Assembly (NCBI GenBank): GCA_037042915.1
Contig: CM073193.1
Location: forward strand, 1 to 64,000
Direction: 5' to 3'
DNA length: 64,000 nt
Source: Auricularia sp. M13
Lineage: Eukaryota; Basidiomycota; Agaricomycetes; Auriculariales; Auriculariaceae
In this document: positions 32,541 through 38,462 of the stretch, in pieces
Position numbering within the stretch: the stretch's first letter is position 1
How the letters are laid out: each line of letters opens with the position of its first letter
Program-made: the position numbers and the translations under genes
Notes under the pieces: model-generated
Databases searched by the model: none
Told to the model about the DNA's origin: nothing
The model's input: the letters and a program-made list of their open reading frames with translations, nothing else

Positions 32541-33168
32541 CTAAATCATGAGGTTCGTCGGCGTCAATACTGCGAACTTTCGATGGAATATTGTAGCTTG
32601 ACCGCGAATTTTCCACCACACCCTATCGACACCTGGGAATCGAGCAAGGGGCCGTTGAGCGGCAAACTTCGTTCTATCGGGCTCGCCCGAGACCAACACG
32701 CCTTTGCAGACCCCGAGCGTGATCCTCTGCGGTACCGCAACAGACCCCGTGTCAAGCAAGGACTCGACGTCCCTTACCTTTAGGCGCTCAACCCCATGGA
32801 TGGTCGCGATGTCGAGGCGCGAGAGCGCGGGGCAGTCGATTGTCACGGCGGGTTCAAGGCAAGTGGGACTGTCGCCAGTCGTGTTGTCCAATATGACGCC
32901 TACGCGGCGCGCATTGGGCAGACGCGGGAGCCACTGCGCGAGGTGCGGGTGGGACCATATGCTCAGCGCGACAGTCACGTCGGCGACCTGATCCCACCAG
33001 CCGGAGCGTCCACGCACAAATAATTGGCGGAGCCTCTCGCACCCGCGGCGCATTTCGTCGAAGCAGATGATTCAATCGGTTTCAACGCTGCGAATGTCGA
33101 TGAAGAATGCATAGCGCACGCGTCACGGCGTCTCCATCGTCCGCTATGATTTCAATCGCTACGGTGAG
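32541..33168 (-). pseudogene. C-terminal part of an F-box/LRR gene split by the LTR element
   Basis: A minus-strand frame with leucine-rich, F-box-protein-like character (VTVALSIWSHPHLAQWLPRL, then NARRVGVIL, and PALSRLDIATIHGVERL). At its upstream side, after one copy of the 5-bp target duplication, the sequence continues in the same frame as the F-box fragment at 38463-38860 (LTGRL joined to TVAIEII). An intron or a frame break lies near 33060-33080. The gene was therefore interrupted by the retrotransposon and is probably non-functional. Confidence 0.6.
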
Positions 33169-33539
33169 TGTAACAGAACGGTGCTCAAGGAAGATGACTA
33201 AGCACCGGCTCGCCCGATGGAACGGGGACCGATGAGAGCTTACGAGAATATTCGAGAATAGTGTAGTCTCCCGAAATCATTCATGTATTTACCATACCTT
33301 TCTAGGTACTTCCAGCTCTAGCTTACCTAGAGTATAAAAGGAAGTCCTTTGCTGAATGAGAAGGACGTCTTTGGTCGGCTTACAGCTGCCCGAGAATTAT
33401 TTGAGGAAATATTTGACTTTGCCGGACTACGTCCAGCATCGTCGTGTGATTAGATTAGATTAGAATTTAAGAGGCGTTCGAGGTCGCTCAGAGAGCCTGC
33501 CCCGAAAGAATCCGAACTCAAGAGTCCGTTATTCTTACA
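33169..33539 (+). repeat. 5' LTR, 371 bp
   Basis: Begins TGTAACAG and ends TTATTCTTACA. It has a TATA box (GAGTATAAAAGG, near 33332) that would start the genomic transcript rightward. By my reading it is base-for-base identical to the 3' LTR. Confidence 0.9.
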
Positions 33540-33540
33540 T

Positions 33541-33555
33541 TTGGTGACCACCTTG
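33541..33555 (+). other. Primer-binding-site-like sequence
   Basis: TTGGTGACCACCTTGG lies 1-2 nt after the 5' LTR. A TGG start matches the complement of a tRNA CCA end, the usual layout for minus-strand priming. The matching tRNA was not determined. Confidence 0.6.
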
Positions 33556-33580
33556 GTTCTGAGTTAACCTTGAGTAATCA

Positions 33581-33877
33581 TTGAAAATGCCTCCAAGGAA
33601 GCGTGGTTCGCGTGCAGTAAAGCAGCAGCCAGCTTCGTCATCTGCCGATACGAACGGAGACGAAGGACGTGTGCACGAGATAGCCATGTCCGGGCCGTCG
33701 GAGCCGCGAATGGCCGACGCCCCTGTTGCTTCGACCACCACGTCGAGACGCAACCAGTCAGCGCAGGATGCGCCGACCGACGACGTAGTGCCAGAGGCAC
33801 CGCCGTCTTTACCGTTCACCTCAAGACGCCAGGCGATAACGCCGACTGAGGATAGGACGGTGGTACCGAGGACCCCT
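33581..33877 (+). pseudogene. gag N-terminal remnant of the LTR element
   Basis: An ATG shortly after the primer-binding site opens about 99 codons (MPPRKRGSRAVKQQP...), basic then Ser/Thr/Pro/acid-rich, like the N-terminus of mushroom Ty3/gypsy Gag proteins. It breaks off where the nested inverted-repeat element begins (33878), and a stop follows about 30 codons into the insert. The zinc knuckle and capsid parts are missing. Confidence 0.6.
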
Positions 33878-33883
33878 AGAAAA

Positions 33884-34153
33884 CCGTGCGCAGGGTCCGT
33901 GCGCATCCGTGCGCAAGAATATCCGTGCGCAGAACTTCCGTGCGCAGGGTTAGAACTCTCGTGCGCATGAGTTTAACTTTCGTGCGCAGGGTCAAAATGT
34001 CCGTGCGCACTTTTCAAAATCCGTGCGCAGGGTCCTGGTCATCCGTGCGCATGAAATGTGCTTTCGTGCGCAATTTTCACAATCCGTGCGCAGGCTCCTA
34101 ATATCTGTGCGCAGTTTTCACAATCCGTGCGCAAAGTACAAAATCCGTGCGCA
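33884..34153 (+). repeat. Left array of about 15 CCGTGCGCA motifs
   Basis: Roughly 15 copies of (T/C)CGTGCGCA, all in the same orientation. Many are spaced 20-21 bp apart start to start, and the spacers are A/T-rich (for example GTTTTCACAA). Confidence 0.8.
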
Positions 34154-34479
34154 GTGTGAAAAACATCAAAAATCTTTTGAAGATGTATATCATAGATGTA
34201 TTTATGGCACTGTGTGCATTGATAGAGGTGCACATCTCTAGTGTCAACTATTTTAGATAAACTGCTGTGCTACATGATTTGTTCGAAATTTCACTTCCAC
34301 GTTAGTACAGAATCAGAAATATTCAGCCAGCATGTCGGTTTGTGTTCTAAGCTGATTTCCTGAAGAGGCTCTAAGTAGGTACTCATAACTCAAAAGATAT
34401 TACCCTCATACAGTTATGTTATGTTAGGTTGGATTAAGCTTGCTAAGGTTAGAACATATGTTATTTTGGTTCATGAATT

Positions 34480-35110
34480 TGTAAGGGTCCGACCCCCGCA
34501 CCTGATCTTCTGCGCTGACACCGACTTGATCAGATAATACCGGCTTGGGATGATCGGATAGGACACCGTATTCCCCCTTATGCCATGTATGCACTATGAA
34601 TGTGAAAGGTTTATTACGCAGACATTACTCCGTGATTTCTGCTGAGTCAGCATTTCTGGAACAAGCGTTGGACATTAGTCAGAAGTAAGACGCTCTTCAC
34701 CGCGCCGTTGCGAGCGGCTGACTAATGCGTGTCGTCGCCAACGACGTGGTCTCATTGGCAGGATGGCGTTTCTGCTGAGGAATCTTGAACATTGAATCGG
34801 TAATCAACCCAGAAGGACTCTGGGGATCATTACTAAGCAGCTATCCTGTGAGGTATAAAAGGAGAAAGGTTGTTGTACTTAGGACTCCAGTTTTCTTAAC
34901 ACGGAACAAAGTCTCATTCAACCTTGAGTGCAGCAAACCAAGTCCGTTAAAAGAAACTCTAGCAATCAGTAAAAGTGATCTAAAGCATCGGTGAGCAGTG
35001 AGATTCATGGAATGAATTATGTACATTATGTACGGCGCTGTGCGCCGATGCCACGGACCTTATAGAATTCAGGAGTAATATCCTTTGCAGCCTGAATAAC
35101 CATGATTCAC
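34480..35110 (+). repeat. LTR-like sequence (possible solo LTR)
   Basis: Starts TGTAAGGGTCCGACCCCC and has a TATA box (GAGGTATAAAAGGAG near 34852) followed by a leader-like region, resembling a fungal LTR. A CA end with a matching GAATT target duplication could not be fixed, so the right border is approximate. Confidence 0.35.
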
Positions 35111-35427
35111 TCATCTACTAATAGATTCTAAGCCCTGATCCCAGTTTGGTCAAAAAATCTCAAATGAATTGTCTGGGTCAAGGAGAGACGAGACACGTGT
35201 TTTGGGCTGTGGGGTGGACCTGGAACAAGCCAAAGTTTGCTGTGTCTGCTCCACCACCTCTGTACCACAGAGGTGCTCACTCTCCTGCATCACACCACCA
35301 TCCCGTCCCTTCAGATCTTCTTGTTGATTAGATGGGTTCCAACCTCATCCTCACCATGCCATCTCACAGAGGGACTTGCACGCCCACACCATATTATACT
35401 CAAGTTACCAGGATGTATTTTCTGTAG

Positions 35428-35503
35428 TTTGGACTAGTGGTTAATATGTACATGTTCTTAATGGATTCGAAACACCCTCAGTTCAAATCCAGTCATAGAC
35501 ATC
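35428..35503 (+). ncRNA. tRNA-like or SINE-like segment
   Basis: An A-box-like GGACTAGTGGTTAA is followed about 45 bp later by a B-box-like AGTTCAAATCC, the internal promoter spacing of tRNA-derived genes. The acceptor and T stems pair poorly, so this is not a functional tRNA. It could be a SINE head. Confidence 0.3.
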
Positions 35504-35690
35504 CATTTTGTGGCACTTCTACCTGTGTTTACTACATTCTGTAGTGTATTAACAAACTGTACTTGAGCAGTCAATTGCAACAAGACTTATGGAAATTGTT
35601 GGTGTTTGTTAATGAACTTCAATGAGTTCAATCAAGTCGCCTAGATGTGCCAAAGTGAAAAAAATAATGGAGTTGTGCTTTATACAGAAT

Positions 35691-35916
35691 CCGTGCGCAA
35701 CACACAAAATCCGTGCACAGTGTCAGCATGTCCGTGCGCATGTCTACCATGTCCGTGCGCATGATTCTAACATCCGTGCGCAGGGTCCAAAATGTTGTGC
35801 GCACAAAATCACAATCCGTGCGCAGTCCTCCTTCATCCGTGCGCATGATTTCAACTTTCGTGCGCAGTGTGAAAAATCCGTGCGCAGTCCGTGCGCATCC
35901 GTGCGCAACGTGCGCA
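35691..35916 (+). repeat. Right array of about 12 CCGTGCGCA motifs
   Basis: About 12 motif copies in the same orientation as the left array, again mostly 20-21 bp apart, ending in a tight run of four at 35889-35916. A few are degenerate (CCGTGCACA, TTGTGCGCA). Confidence 0.8.
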
Positions 35917-36120
35917 ACATGCGCGCGGAACTTGAAACCAGTAATTTGACAATATCTTGGCCAGTTTTTAAGGTTTGATAGGTTTGTGCACACAGACATG
36001 TGCGGGTAGGTGTAAGCTACTGGAATGCTCAACAATCATTCTAGGATGTCTGAACAGTCTTCTAGGGCAGGATTACTGCTGCGCACGGACCCCGCGCACG
36101 TGCGCACGGTTTTCTCGTGA

Positions 36121-36459
36121 CCCATCAATGACAATGCCTATAGACTGGAGATCCCAGCAGATATGCAGATCCATCCCGTGCTCAACTCGGAATATCTCAA
36201 GCCATACGTCAAGAGTCCTGTGGAGTTCTCGGCTCGTGACCCAGAGAATGAGGAGCCCATCTACGTCAGAGATGGTGTGGAACACTTCTGGGGTGAGAAG
36301 ATACTCCAACGGCGTCGCCGCGGCGCAGGGTGGCAAGTCCTTGTAAAATTCAAAGGCAGACCCGCCAACCAAGCCGTATGGATATCTCAGAACAAGGTCA
36401 ACAAGCAAGATCCTGACCTTTTGCACGCTTTTCTCACAGAGAAAGGACTGGAACTCTGA
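36121..36459 (+). pseudogene. Integrase C-terminus and chromodomain-like tail of Ty3/gypsy Pol
   Basis: The frame reads PINDNAYRLEIPADMQIHPV then LNSEYLKPYV, the standard join between integrase and its C-terminal domain. A chromodomain-like stretch follows (EKILQRRRRGAGWQVLVKFKG...), then a stop. In complete elements this is the last ~110 residues of Pol and helps target integration to chromatin. Everything upstream in pol is missing. Confidence 0.75.
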
Positions 36460-36653
36460 GTCACGAGGAGGACTCGGTCCGAACTCTTGCAACGAGGCAG
36501 GCTTCTATCGCCCCATGTACTCGCCATCGGATATATCGATGCCAAGATGCTGGGGTGATAACGGGCCTAGAAACGACGTCATGGACTATACGAAAGGCTA
36601 TAAAGACTCATGCTCGCGCGACGAGCATCCTCATCTAAGAATTGTTTTAAGAA

Positions 36654-37930
36654 ATGTTGAACTCGTATTCCAACTCCCCCGTCTCGTCCTACGCTACGCT
36701 GCCGTCGCACTTTACGCCGTCGCCGTCGCAGTCGCTGTCCCAGTATCCTGGCGACTCGACGATGACCTGCGAATGGTCCACGGCGCGGGACGACCAAAAG
36801 GAACATATGTTCCATACTTCATTCGGTGAGCCGTCACCTCCGCTGCTGTCACTGTCGTCACGTAGCACGATCCTGACGCATACTGTTGTAGACGACGCGG
36901 GTGACGACTCCGCGGCGAAGTGGCCACCGCCTCCTTCGTCCGACGTCAATAGCCTGCCGTCCCTTGTTACAGCTTCTTCGGAAGGCGGATCCGCTTTCAC
37001 TTTCACTTCTTCCCCGCCGCCTTCACCTATGGACTACCAACACTCCCAGGGACTGCCGCCCGCAAACGGCTTGCCATCGCATCCGCACCAGAGCAACGTC
37101 GCAGACTCTTGCTCTATGCCACCTCCGATTGCACCCCGTGCGTACTATCGCTGCAGATCTGATCGTGGACTGACGCGCACCTGCTCCAGCCGGCTTGATT
37201 CGTACGAAGAGCTTCGTGCAGCATCAGCGTTTCCAACCGCCCCCTCCTACGCGGCCGCCAACACCGATGCCTGCTCGTGACCCCCGTTTGAACCTCGGGC
37301 TGGGTACCACTGAGCCTGTGCGCATTTTCTACGGCCCAGACGAGAACGGCGCATTTACTACTTCACCTCCCTTTCCAACATCGCAGGCTCCTCCCGCTCC
37401 ATCGCCGCCCCTCACACCGACGATGGGTTCGATGGAGAACAATGAGTTCCTTGCCTGTAAGCACTTCGCTACGATGCCAAGCGCGGATTCTGACACATGC
37501 TCCATCAGGGTCATACGCTGAATGGATGTACAACGTCTCCATGTCACCATCCGAGATTCGCTACAGGCTACGGCAACTCACACCCGAAGTTAAAGAGCTC
37601 GTTGGCCGCGTCTTGATCGGCTTACGACCTCGCAACTCTGTTGTTCCAACGCGCATTCGCATCACCCGCGTGCTCGATCACGCAATCCGCGACTGCGGCA
37701 TCGACTACCAGTGTCGCCTCGCCGACGGATCGATCGAATACGTGCGTGACCTCGATTTGCGCTTCTTTATTGGCGGACAACGTCGCATCCGGGCCTACTG
37801 GAGCTCGACGGACCACCGCCTATCGATGGACGAGATCGATAGGCTGCTGACCTTCCCGCAGTACGCTTGCGGCGAGGGAAAGTTTCTGCGCCTGATGCGC
37901 CGCCATCGTATCTATGGCGCTCGACTGTAG
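36654..37930 (+). CDS. Intron-containing cargo gene inside the LTR element, 390 aa, function unknown
   Basis: Exons 36654-37137, 37190-37456 and 37509-37930 with two 52-nt GT-AG introns (GTGCGT...CTCCAG and GTAAGC...CATCAG); 391 codons with no internal stop. A TATA box (TATAAA, 36599-36604) lies about 50 bp upstream, so the gene may have its own promoter. The N-terminal ~240 residues are Ser/Pro-rich and look disordered. The C-terminal ~140 residues look folded (MSPSEIRYRLRQLTPEVKEL, then RNSVVPTRIRITRVLDHAI and a basic end FLRLMRRHRIYGARL). I recognise no family. It is in the sense orientation of the LTR element, between pol and the polypurine tract. Confidence 0.65.
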
Positions 37931-38076
37931 ACCCGTCCTGCGTCGTTTCATTCACCCCCTGTATTCTGGCATCTTTTGTTTTGATACTTCGTGAACAATT
38001 TGCTGTATAGATACTACAGACTACGGCAACACGAATTTTATTGCCAGAACTTCAGCGAATGGGACTTCGCTCCCAG

Positions 38077-38091
38077 CGGAGGGGGGAGTGA
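38077..38091 (+). other. Polypurine tract of the LTR element
   Basis: GCGGAGGGGGGAGTGA directly precedes the TG of the 3' LTR, the position and composition of a plus-strand primer. Confidence 0.8.
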
Positions 38092-38462
38092 TGTAACAGA
38101 ACGGTGCTCAAGGAAGATGACTAAGCACCGGCTCGCCCGATGGAACGGGGACCGATGAGAGCTTACGAGAATATTCGAGAATAGTGTAGTCTCCCGAAAT
38201 CATTCATGTATTTACCATACCTTTCTAGGTACTTCCAGCTCTAGCTTACCTAGAGTATAAAAGGAAGTCCTTTGCTGAATGAGAAGGACGTCTTTGGTCG
38301 GCTTACAGCTGCCCGAGAATTATTTGAGGAAATATTTGACTTTGCCGGACTACGTCCAGCATCGTCGTGTGATTAGATTAGATTAGAATTTAAGAGGCGT
38401 TCGAGGTCGCTCAGAGAGCCTGCCCCGAAAGAATCCGAACTCAAGAGTCCGTTATTCTTACA
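38092..38462 (+). repeat. 3' LTR, 371 bp
   Basis: Same length and, by my reading, same sequence as the 5' LTR; followed by the GTGAG target duplication. Confidence 0.9.

Follow-up and report, generated by a model that had tools for sequence, protein, structure and literature searches.

The question raised by the first 64,000 nucleotides of contig CM073193.1 of Auricularia sp. M13 (assembly GCA_037042915.1; this whole stretch is referred to here as the window) is what two arrays of a nine-base word, running in the same direction and largely two helical turns apart, are doing in fungal DNA. We found that the arrays belong to a non-autonomous DNA transposon, which forms a dispersed family with 9-bp target duplications. 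We put at roughly two in three the probability that they are phased subterminal sites at which an element-encoded protein would act in transposition, the element being a non-autonomous cut-and-paste transposon with composite, Mutator/Foldback-like ends. The docking protein would probably be made by the element's gene-bearing relatives.

The window contains 28 units of the form (C/T)CGTGCGCA, arranged as a block of 15 and a block of 13, all on the + strand; the original prediction, made from the sequence letters, had counted about 27 copies in two blocks of one orientation, and both points were borne out. Exact copies of CCGTGCGCA make up 20 of the 28 units and the remainder carry one or two changes. 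The 6-bp centre of the unit, TGCGCA, is palindromic, so the direction of a unit rests on its [C/T]CG prefix. When both strands of the window were searched with one mismatch allowed, the 9-mer was matched 76 times, as against 32.1 +/- 5.5 times in shuffled sequences (largest value 45). The features of the element, as defined below, are as follows.

33870..36123, + strand: family-A non-autonomous copy, 2254 bp, delimited by aligned ends and without a target site duplication (TSD)
33870..33892, + strand: left terminus GGACCCCTAGAAAACCGTGCGCA, made up of an outer 8-bp motif, AGAAAA and the first unit, from aligned ends and genome-wide GGACCCCTAGAAAA sites
33884..34153, + strand: left array, 15 units of (C/T)CGTGCGCA, from motif positions and phase analysis
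34480..35064, no strand given: nested insert resembling a long terminal repeat (LTR), TG...TA, 585 bp, with GAATT on both sides, a stretch skipped by the other matched A copies
35691..35916, + strand: right array, 13 units oriented like those on the left, from motif positions and phase analysis
36080..36109, - strand: two inverted units at the right end of the element, from motif positions
36101..36123, - strand: right terminus TGCGCACGGTTTTCTCGTGACCC, which faces the opposite way to the left one and has a different outer 8-bp motif, from aligned ends

The gaps between units in the left block are 13, 10, 16 and 15 bp followed by ten of 20-22 bp, and those in the right block are nine of 20-21 bp followed by 11, 10 and 9 bp. 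Packing is mirror-like, with the shorter gaps outermost in both blocks, but the direction of the units is not mirrored. Helical phase reached R = 0.95 in the right block (period 10.4 bp) and R = 0.985 in the inner 11 units of the left block (period 20.75 bp); none of 2000 random placements came up to either value. The left block taken whole was weaker (R = 0.77 at 10.4 bp), being equalled in 3 of 2000 placements for periods of 10-11 bp and in 12 of 2000 for any period; in all these comparisons periods were scanned more coarsely for the null (steps of 0.1-0.25 bp) than for the data (steps of 0.05 bp). The proposal that the units lie two turns apart on one face of the DNA thus holds for the 19 of 26 within-block gaps that measure 20-22 bp, and fails for the outer four gaps on the left and the outer three on the right.

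Relatives of the insert were sought in the genome of the same strain (52.1 Mb in 14 contigs), where it matched at least 76 pieces. Aligned copies begin with GGACCCCTAGAAAACCGTGCGCA and finish with TGCGCACGGTTTTCTCGTGACCC, the end consensus being GGACCCCTAGAAAA... on the left and ...TTTTCTC[G/A]TGACCC on the right. The element had been predicted to end at AGAAAA, and this had to be given up: on either side it reaches 8 bp beyond that point. The motif had also been expected in inverted orientation at both extreme ends. It is so at the right end, in the form of the two inverted units, but the terminal unit on the left is the first unit of the array itself. The left consensus GGACCCCTAGAAAA occurs in the genome at 48 exact sites and three with one mismatch, compared with 7 for a reversed-pattern control; 50 of these 51 sites fall within examined element loci, and C2:4202542 was not looked at. 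A perfect 9-bp TSD was found for 29 of 47 left-right pairings and a 10-bp TSD for two more, and the 16 pairings without one include unlike ends in nested loci as well as the window copy. A 3-bp duplication with a 3-bp spacer had been considered and was replaced by the 9-bp duplication.

Selection for both ends lying 1-2.7 kb apart gave at least 38 short copies, which fall into family A (24 copies, AGAAAAC ends) and family B (14 copies, AGAAAAA ends), with a median pairwise identity of 98% among 19 aligned A copies and 97% among 11 aligned B copies (minima 89%). Although the interiors of A and B differ, unit clusters lie towards both ends in all 38, the left cluster being displaced inward in one (L040). 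The arrays run the same way at both ends, with 0-4 reverse units per copy, and the number of units varies slightly between copies. Uninterrupted A copies are mostly 1.63-1.71 kb long and usually have 0.93-0.99 kb between blocks; the distance of some 1.5 kb originally given is correct for the window copy, where it is inflated by the 585-bp nested insert.

Genome-wide, we counted 327 pairs of the word spaced 5-20 bp apart and 471 triples spaced 12-15 bp apart, with none of either for the reversed-pattern control. The triples within the listed part of the 471 form 16 groups, of which 14 lie in known element copies, one is unrelated and one was assigned to neither. A GTGCGCA triple at C3:3878656-3878704 lies outside any known element copy and has a different layout. 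In the copies examined the arrays are linked to AGAAAA[C/A]CGTGCGCA termini, as the earlier proposal of a genome-wide search for clusters had envisaged.

A rival reading takes the arrays for the remains of a satellite, in which 21-bp units were once duplicated and the words survive without function, by chance or gene conversion. When the window units were aligned on the word, the eight positions of the core CGTGCGCA came out at 1.6-2.0 bits and the spacers at 0.03-0.5 bits. In two comparisons between A and B, cores were identical at 96 of 108 and 102 of 119 positions (89% and 86%) and sequence outside them at 107 of 203 and 312 of 616 (53% and 51%), with cores defined on A only and by an aligner that may favour them. 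Spacers at corresponding places in the left arrays of A and B match at 5.1 of 9 positions over 11 pairs, a value reached by 1 of 10000 permutations; non-corresponding spacers match at 2.7 of 9 and those of different units within the left A array at 2.9 of 9. A spacing skeleton of 16, 29, 39, 55, 70, ... is also common to both families. The match of spacers at corresponding places indicates that A and B inherited the same array.

A tandem repeat of whole unit plus spacer was not what we found, and the repeat is no satellite: the arrays belong to transposon ends, which excludes the simple satellite unrelated to element ends that had been named as a possible refutation. Even a degenerate satellite we regard as improbable in the extreme. 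It would account for the regular length, the slight variation in unit number and a weak shared tendency among spacers (up to 0.5 bit), but spacers within the left A array are as unlike one another as unmatched A and B spacers are, and yet the words are near-identical. In family A, variable non-CpG columns number 7 of 159 in units, 35 of 253 in array spacers and 211 of 1115 in the interior (Fisher tests: units against array spacers, p = 0.002; units against interior, p = 5e-7), although the copies share ancestry, so that such column tests overstate independence and counts of changed cells do not equal independent events.

The base that precedes the core differs between the families in a coordinated manner. 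Ahead of CGTGCGCA, 566 A units have C in 448 cases, T in 96 and A in 22; among 229 B units the base is G in 196 and A in 33, and never C or T. In the one aligned pair of copies compared unit by unit (L042 of family A and L031 of family B), 20 units correspond; L042 has C at 15 of them, T at four and A at one, L031 has G at 16, A at three and a gap at one, and all 16 G units of L031 face C or T in L042. Gene conversion of whole units is unlikely to have produced this change, given that each spacer is unique, and selection by a protein with a changed preference would be its simplest reading. The same observation bears on a purely structural effect, in which the alternation of GC-rich words with AT-rich spacers every two helical turns would bend DNA or exclude nucleosomes with no specific protein involved. 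The spacers are indeed 62.5% AT (200 spacer bases) and are phased with the words, but the interior is 60% AT, so that they are not special, and bending requires neither an exact 8-bp word nor a flanking base that changes with it between families. We consider this explanation highly improbable.

A candidate source of the protein was found in gene-bearing relatives. A 90-aa exon kept in B copies gave a 66% match at five further loci, here termed family C. The family C copies on C4, C5, C7 and C9 are 99-100% identical to the C6 copy over ~3.7 kb, and the first transposase-like exon is free of stops in three of the five (C4, C7 and C9). The C9 copy (3304688-3312481; 7,794 bp) has GCGTCCTCC on both sides. 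Target repeats were seen in three of the five copies and are 8 bp long in C5 and C7 and 9 bp in C9, where the repeat may be 8 bp plus a fixed G, since every family C right end is followed by G; in C4 and C6 the left end was missing or not located. The ends of family C, GGGGGGTAGAGAAAGTGACGCGCA... and ...TGCGCGTCACTTTATATAGACC, resemble those of A and B in plan.

Our description of the family C gene combines a 5' part taken from the C9 copy with a 3' part from the C6 copy, and leaves out C9:3309001-3312299. The gene opens with a zinc-finger pattern, C-x4-C...H-x-H, that was noted by eye and may be of the WRKY-GCM1/FAR1 type (PF03615, E = 0.72). After it come a stretch conserved in a paralogue of 38% identity (SDAAHK[FY]F, KGC[EK]YHY, TNNA[QE]ES), one that is USP-like (NSCWLDSS ... 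HYTA ... YYYDS) and a finger of PHD-like type, then the exon shared with B copies and, last, a basic tail. In the C6 and C9 loci (L066 and L067) the USP-like and PHD-like signatures, which are below the Pfam cut-off, apparently belong to the gene that carries the transposase-like exons.

Pieces of this gene recur in the same order in a B-type copy at C6:1499341-1512331 (12,991 bp, B-type ends, no TSD). In a comparison that left out the second exon, this copy and family C are 29-32% identical in the zinc finger and core, 31-39% in the USP-like stretch and 50-66% in the C-terminal part. A 4.2-kb insert that has 481-bp direct repeats interrupts the copy, whose zinc-finger piece at C6:1502542-1503087 is open. 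The gene and the CGTGCGCA arrays are thereby linked within one element. What had looked like a hybrid with an A left end and a B right end at C6:1498000 is an A fragment of ~106 bp beside this B-type copy. No gene-bearing A copy was found among the loci examined.

Three other candidates were discarded. An rva_4 integrase (PF24764) within the 11.2-kb locus C1:9057483-9068678 could not be taken as the element's own transposase, as it lies on 8.66 kb of DNA inserted into what is otherwise an ordinary A copy; a near-identical second copy of the gene, at C4:3749320, is not near any listed A or B end. This integrase (L009, L010) has 14 related matches in the genome, the essentially identical one at C4:3749320 among them. 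A 14-kb copy on C4 (2955594-2969603; L011, L012) was rejected as autonomous because its extra DNA holds two frames, in opposite directions, that we take to be elements of the tyrosine-recombinase/reverse-transcriptase (DIRS-like) kind. Lastly, the genome's six PF10551 Mutator-like element (MULE) matches were considered as partners, and no exact triple was present near the four loci covered, on C1, C3 and C5, the loci on C6 and C11 having been left out.

Conserved sites amid diverged spacers, together with the phasing, are what would be expected for a cooperatively bound protein. This part of the original prediction is therefore consistent with the sequence evidence, and the silencer that it offered as an alternative to a transposase is without direct evidence. 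In the mechanism that we propose, copies of the relatives' protein would line up along one face of the DNA, neighbours docking every two helical turns, most likely through the zinc finger at the N terminus of the transposase-like protein. Binding may be nucleated at the tightly packed outer units, which lie near the presumed cleavage site at each terminus, and both arrays would help to bring the two ends into one transposition complex. Methylation of the arrays by the host could switch off both binding and mobility, a suggestion based on the two CpGs in each unit and on the fact that most changes in units are CpG decay. Of the changes at CpGs within units, 82 of 86 in A and 39 of 40 in B are C>T or G>A, the pattern that deamination of methylated CpG would produce. 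Five loci in the genome match cytosine methyltransferases (11 exon matches), and there are 19 Tet_JBP matches, four of them over the curated cut-off. Six Tet_JBP matches are 202-aa open frames scoring 29.1-29.4, which suggests a recently multiplied set.

Both arrays could be kept for a reason other than transposase binding, and two such reasons were considered. The arrays may bind an element protein that strips or blocks DNA methylation and so keeps the elements active, as VANC proteins do for VANDAL transposons. A nine-base word in one orientation in non-coding DNA, altered as a set between sister families, would suit such a function, as would CpG-rich units whose CpGs decay more slowly than those elsewhere in the element. 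Nevertheless, no VANC-like gene was identified, though no profile search for one was made; the arrays lie at element ends and not in introns; the C>T and G>A changes suggest that they are methylated at least part of the time; and the accessible parts of the VANDAL sources make no mention of strict two-turn spacing. We consider this, the main rival to our reading, unlikely. The second reason would be a platform for a host zinc-finger protein that represses or compacts the elements, which phased, CpG-rich sites would also suit and for which a genome with methyltransferases and Tet_JBP genes provides a setting. That the sites are concentrated at element ends, and are maintained and altered together by the families, would be odd if they were purely harmful, and we hold such a platform to be quite improbable.

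Several further observations weigh against docking of a transposase as the role of the arrays. Non-unit CpGs decay faster than those in units (per cell, 0.067 against 0.037 in A and 0.083 against 0.037 in B), so the arrays are not singled out by this decay. Family B units are no less variable than array spacers (10 of 133 columns against 14 of 214, p = 0.83) and contrast weakly with the interior (197 of 1355, p = 0.025), and the shared ancestry of the copies and the selection of the 38 by their ends both have to be set on this side. In family C the units are few, consist of a related but different word (TGCGCGTC/GACGCGCA) and point in both directions; not every relative, accordingly, needs long same-direction arrays. 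One or both arrays are missing from two loci that have 9-bp TSDs (L018, of 546 bp, and L061), which we take, without proof, to reflect deletion after insertion. The second of these, C9:780935-780983, is a 49-bp internal-deletion derivative that keeps both outer ends and a 9-bp duplication.

The protein itself adds to these points. The transposase-like protein of family C gave no significant Pfam match (GCM, E = 0.72; PHD, E = 0.045; UCH, E = 0.2), and its first exon no match in the PDB. The PF10551 MULE/DDE profile was not matched at E up to 1 by the first exon, nor at E up to 5 by the second exon and the exons of the 38% identical paralogue; the sole match below 0.01 in that scan was to an unrelated secretion family (E = 0.0075, below cut-off). 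Alignment by hhalign to four MULE proteins of this genome found nothing, but with only two sequences per profile this failure lowers the case for membership and does not exclude it.

The window copy sits within a young LTR retrotransposon (33164-38462), whose two LTRs were delimited as follows.

33164..33539, + strand: 5' LTR of the enclosing retrotransposon, 99.7% identical over 376 bp to 38088-38462
38088..38462, + strand: 3' LTR of the enclosing retrotransposon, the pair of 33164-33539

By eye, the left flank of the element reads like the start of gag and the right flank like the end of pol with a chromodomain, and internal sequence of the retrotransposon seems to be missing where the element sits. 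Recombination between two copies of the element would explain both the missing interior and the absent TSD.

Taken further, the two families may record a change in the specificity of a transposon-encoded protein from an undescribed transposase lineage with a USP-like peptidase and a PHD-like finger, whose arrays would double as methylation-sensitive platforms for docking or anti-silencing and would be the first of their kind in a fungus. We put this forward tentatively, as a possibility with the odds against it. The phasing, the unique spacers and the corresponding units of A and B show which bases a protein would hold and which have moved in step, so that co-evolution of a transposon protein with its sites becomes directly testable.

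The original prediction knew of no described fungal system with this layout. Our searches of the open-licence literature, with Repbase and subscription papers outside their range, found no earlier fungal element of this kind, but related layouts exist outside fungi, and the array principle is not new: VANDAL/VANC arrays, the Mutator/Foldback ends of Muta1 and Tm1, and CACTA subterminal repeats are known. The published systems are compared here on the accessible parts of their sources. Tm1 of root-knot nematodes has 9-bp duplications, asymmetric outer motifs inside the duplication and motif arrays, and shares with the present element many short internal motifs and a non-autonomous majority with a rare gene-bearing copy; its arrays, in contrast, are terminal inverted repeats (TIRs) of ~14-bp tandem repeats (PMC3169594). 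Here they run in the same direction, with units 20-21 bp apart, unrelated spacers and a gene product that does not match the MULE profile. Muta1 and its relatives, MULEs of Aedes aegypti, make 8-9-bp duplications, have 9-15-bp subterminal repeats and have given rise to hundreds of non-autonomous derivatives that keep the ends, but the 12-bp repeats of Muta1 are separated by 3-4-bp spacers within inverted TIRs, whereas spacers here are long and units direct (PMC5225508). TSDs in the 8-11-bp range of MULEs are present in our families, and repeats inside inverted TIRs are absent from the 38 A and B copies.

CACTA/EnSpm elements such as Tgmt* require in cis several to tens of subterminal TNPA-type motifs, unequal at the two ends and varying between families, and an effect of methylation on them has been proposed (PMC2613891). 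The present element has no CACTA termini or 3-bp duplications; it has GGACCCCT/GGGTCACG ends and 9-bp duplications. The Kyakuja-Dileera-Zisupton (KDZ) elements, which are linked to TET/JBP genes, are fungal DNA transposons tied to methylation, and Zisupton makes 8-bp duplications (PMC12730594). Families A and B make 9-bp ones. Pfam contains a KDZ family, and none so named appeared in the scans of the exons tested. The duplications and composite ends resemble those of Mutator/Foldback elements, with superfamily membership unproven; as the MULE profile test failed, we have not filed the element as a MULE, nor as CACTA, KDZ or VANDAL.

The element shares with VANDAL/VANC a non-coding layout in which a short word recurs densely in one orientation. 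In VANDAL21 of Arabidopsis a nine-base word is arrayed in one orientation and bound by VANC21 (PMC5735166). As here, that word is non-coding and differs between related families, but the VANDAL arrays are based on tandem repeats and are found upstream of genes and in introns (PMC5735166, PMC10398659). With cytosine methyltransferases and many TET/JBP-type genes in the same genome, the Auricularia arrays are a possible fungal counterpart to these anti-silencing arrays of plants.
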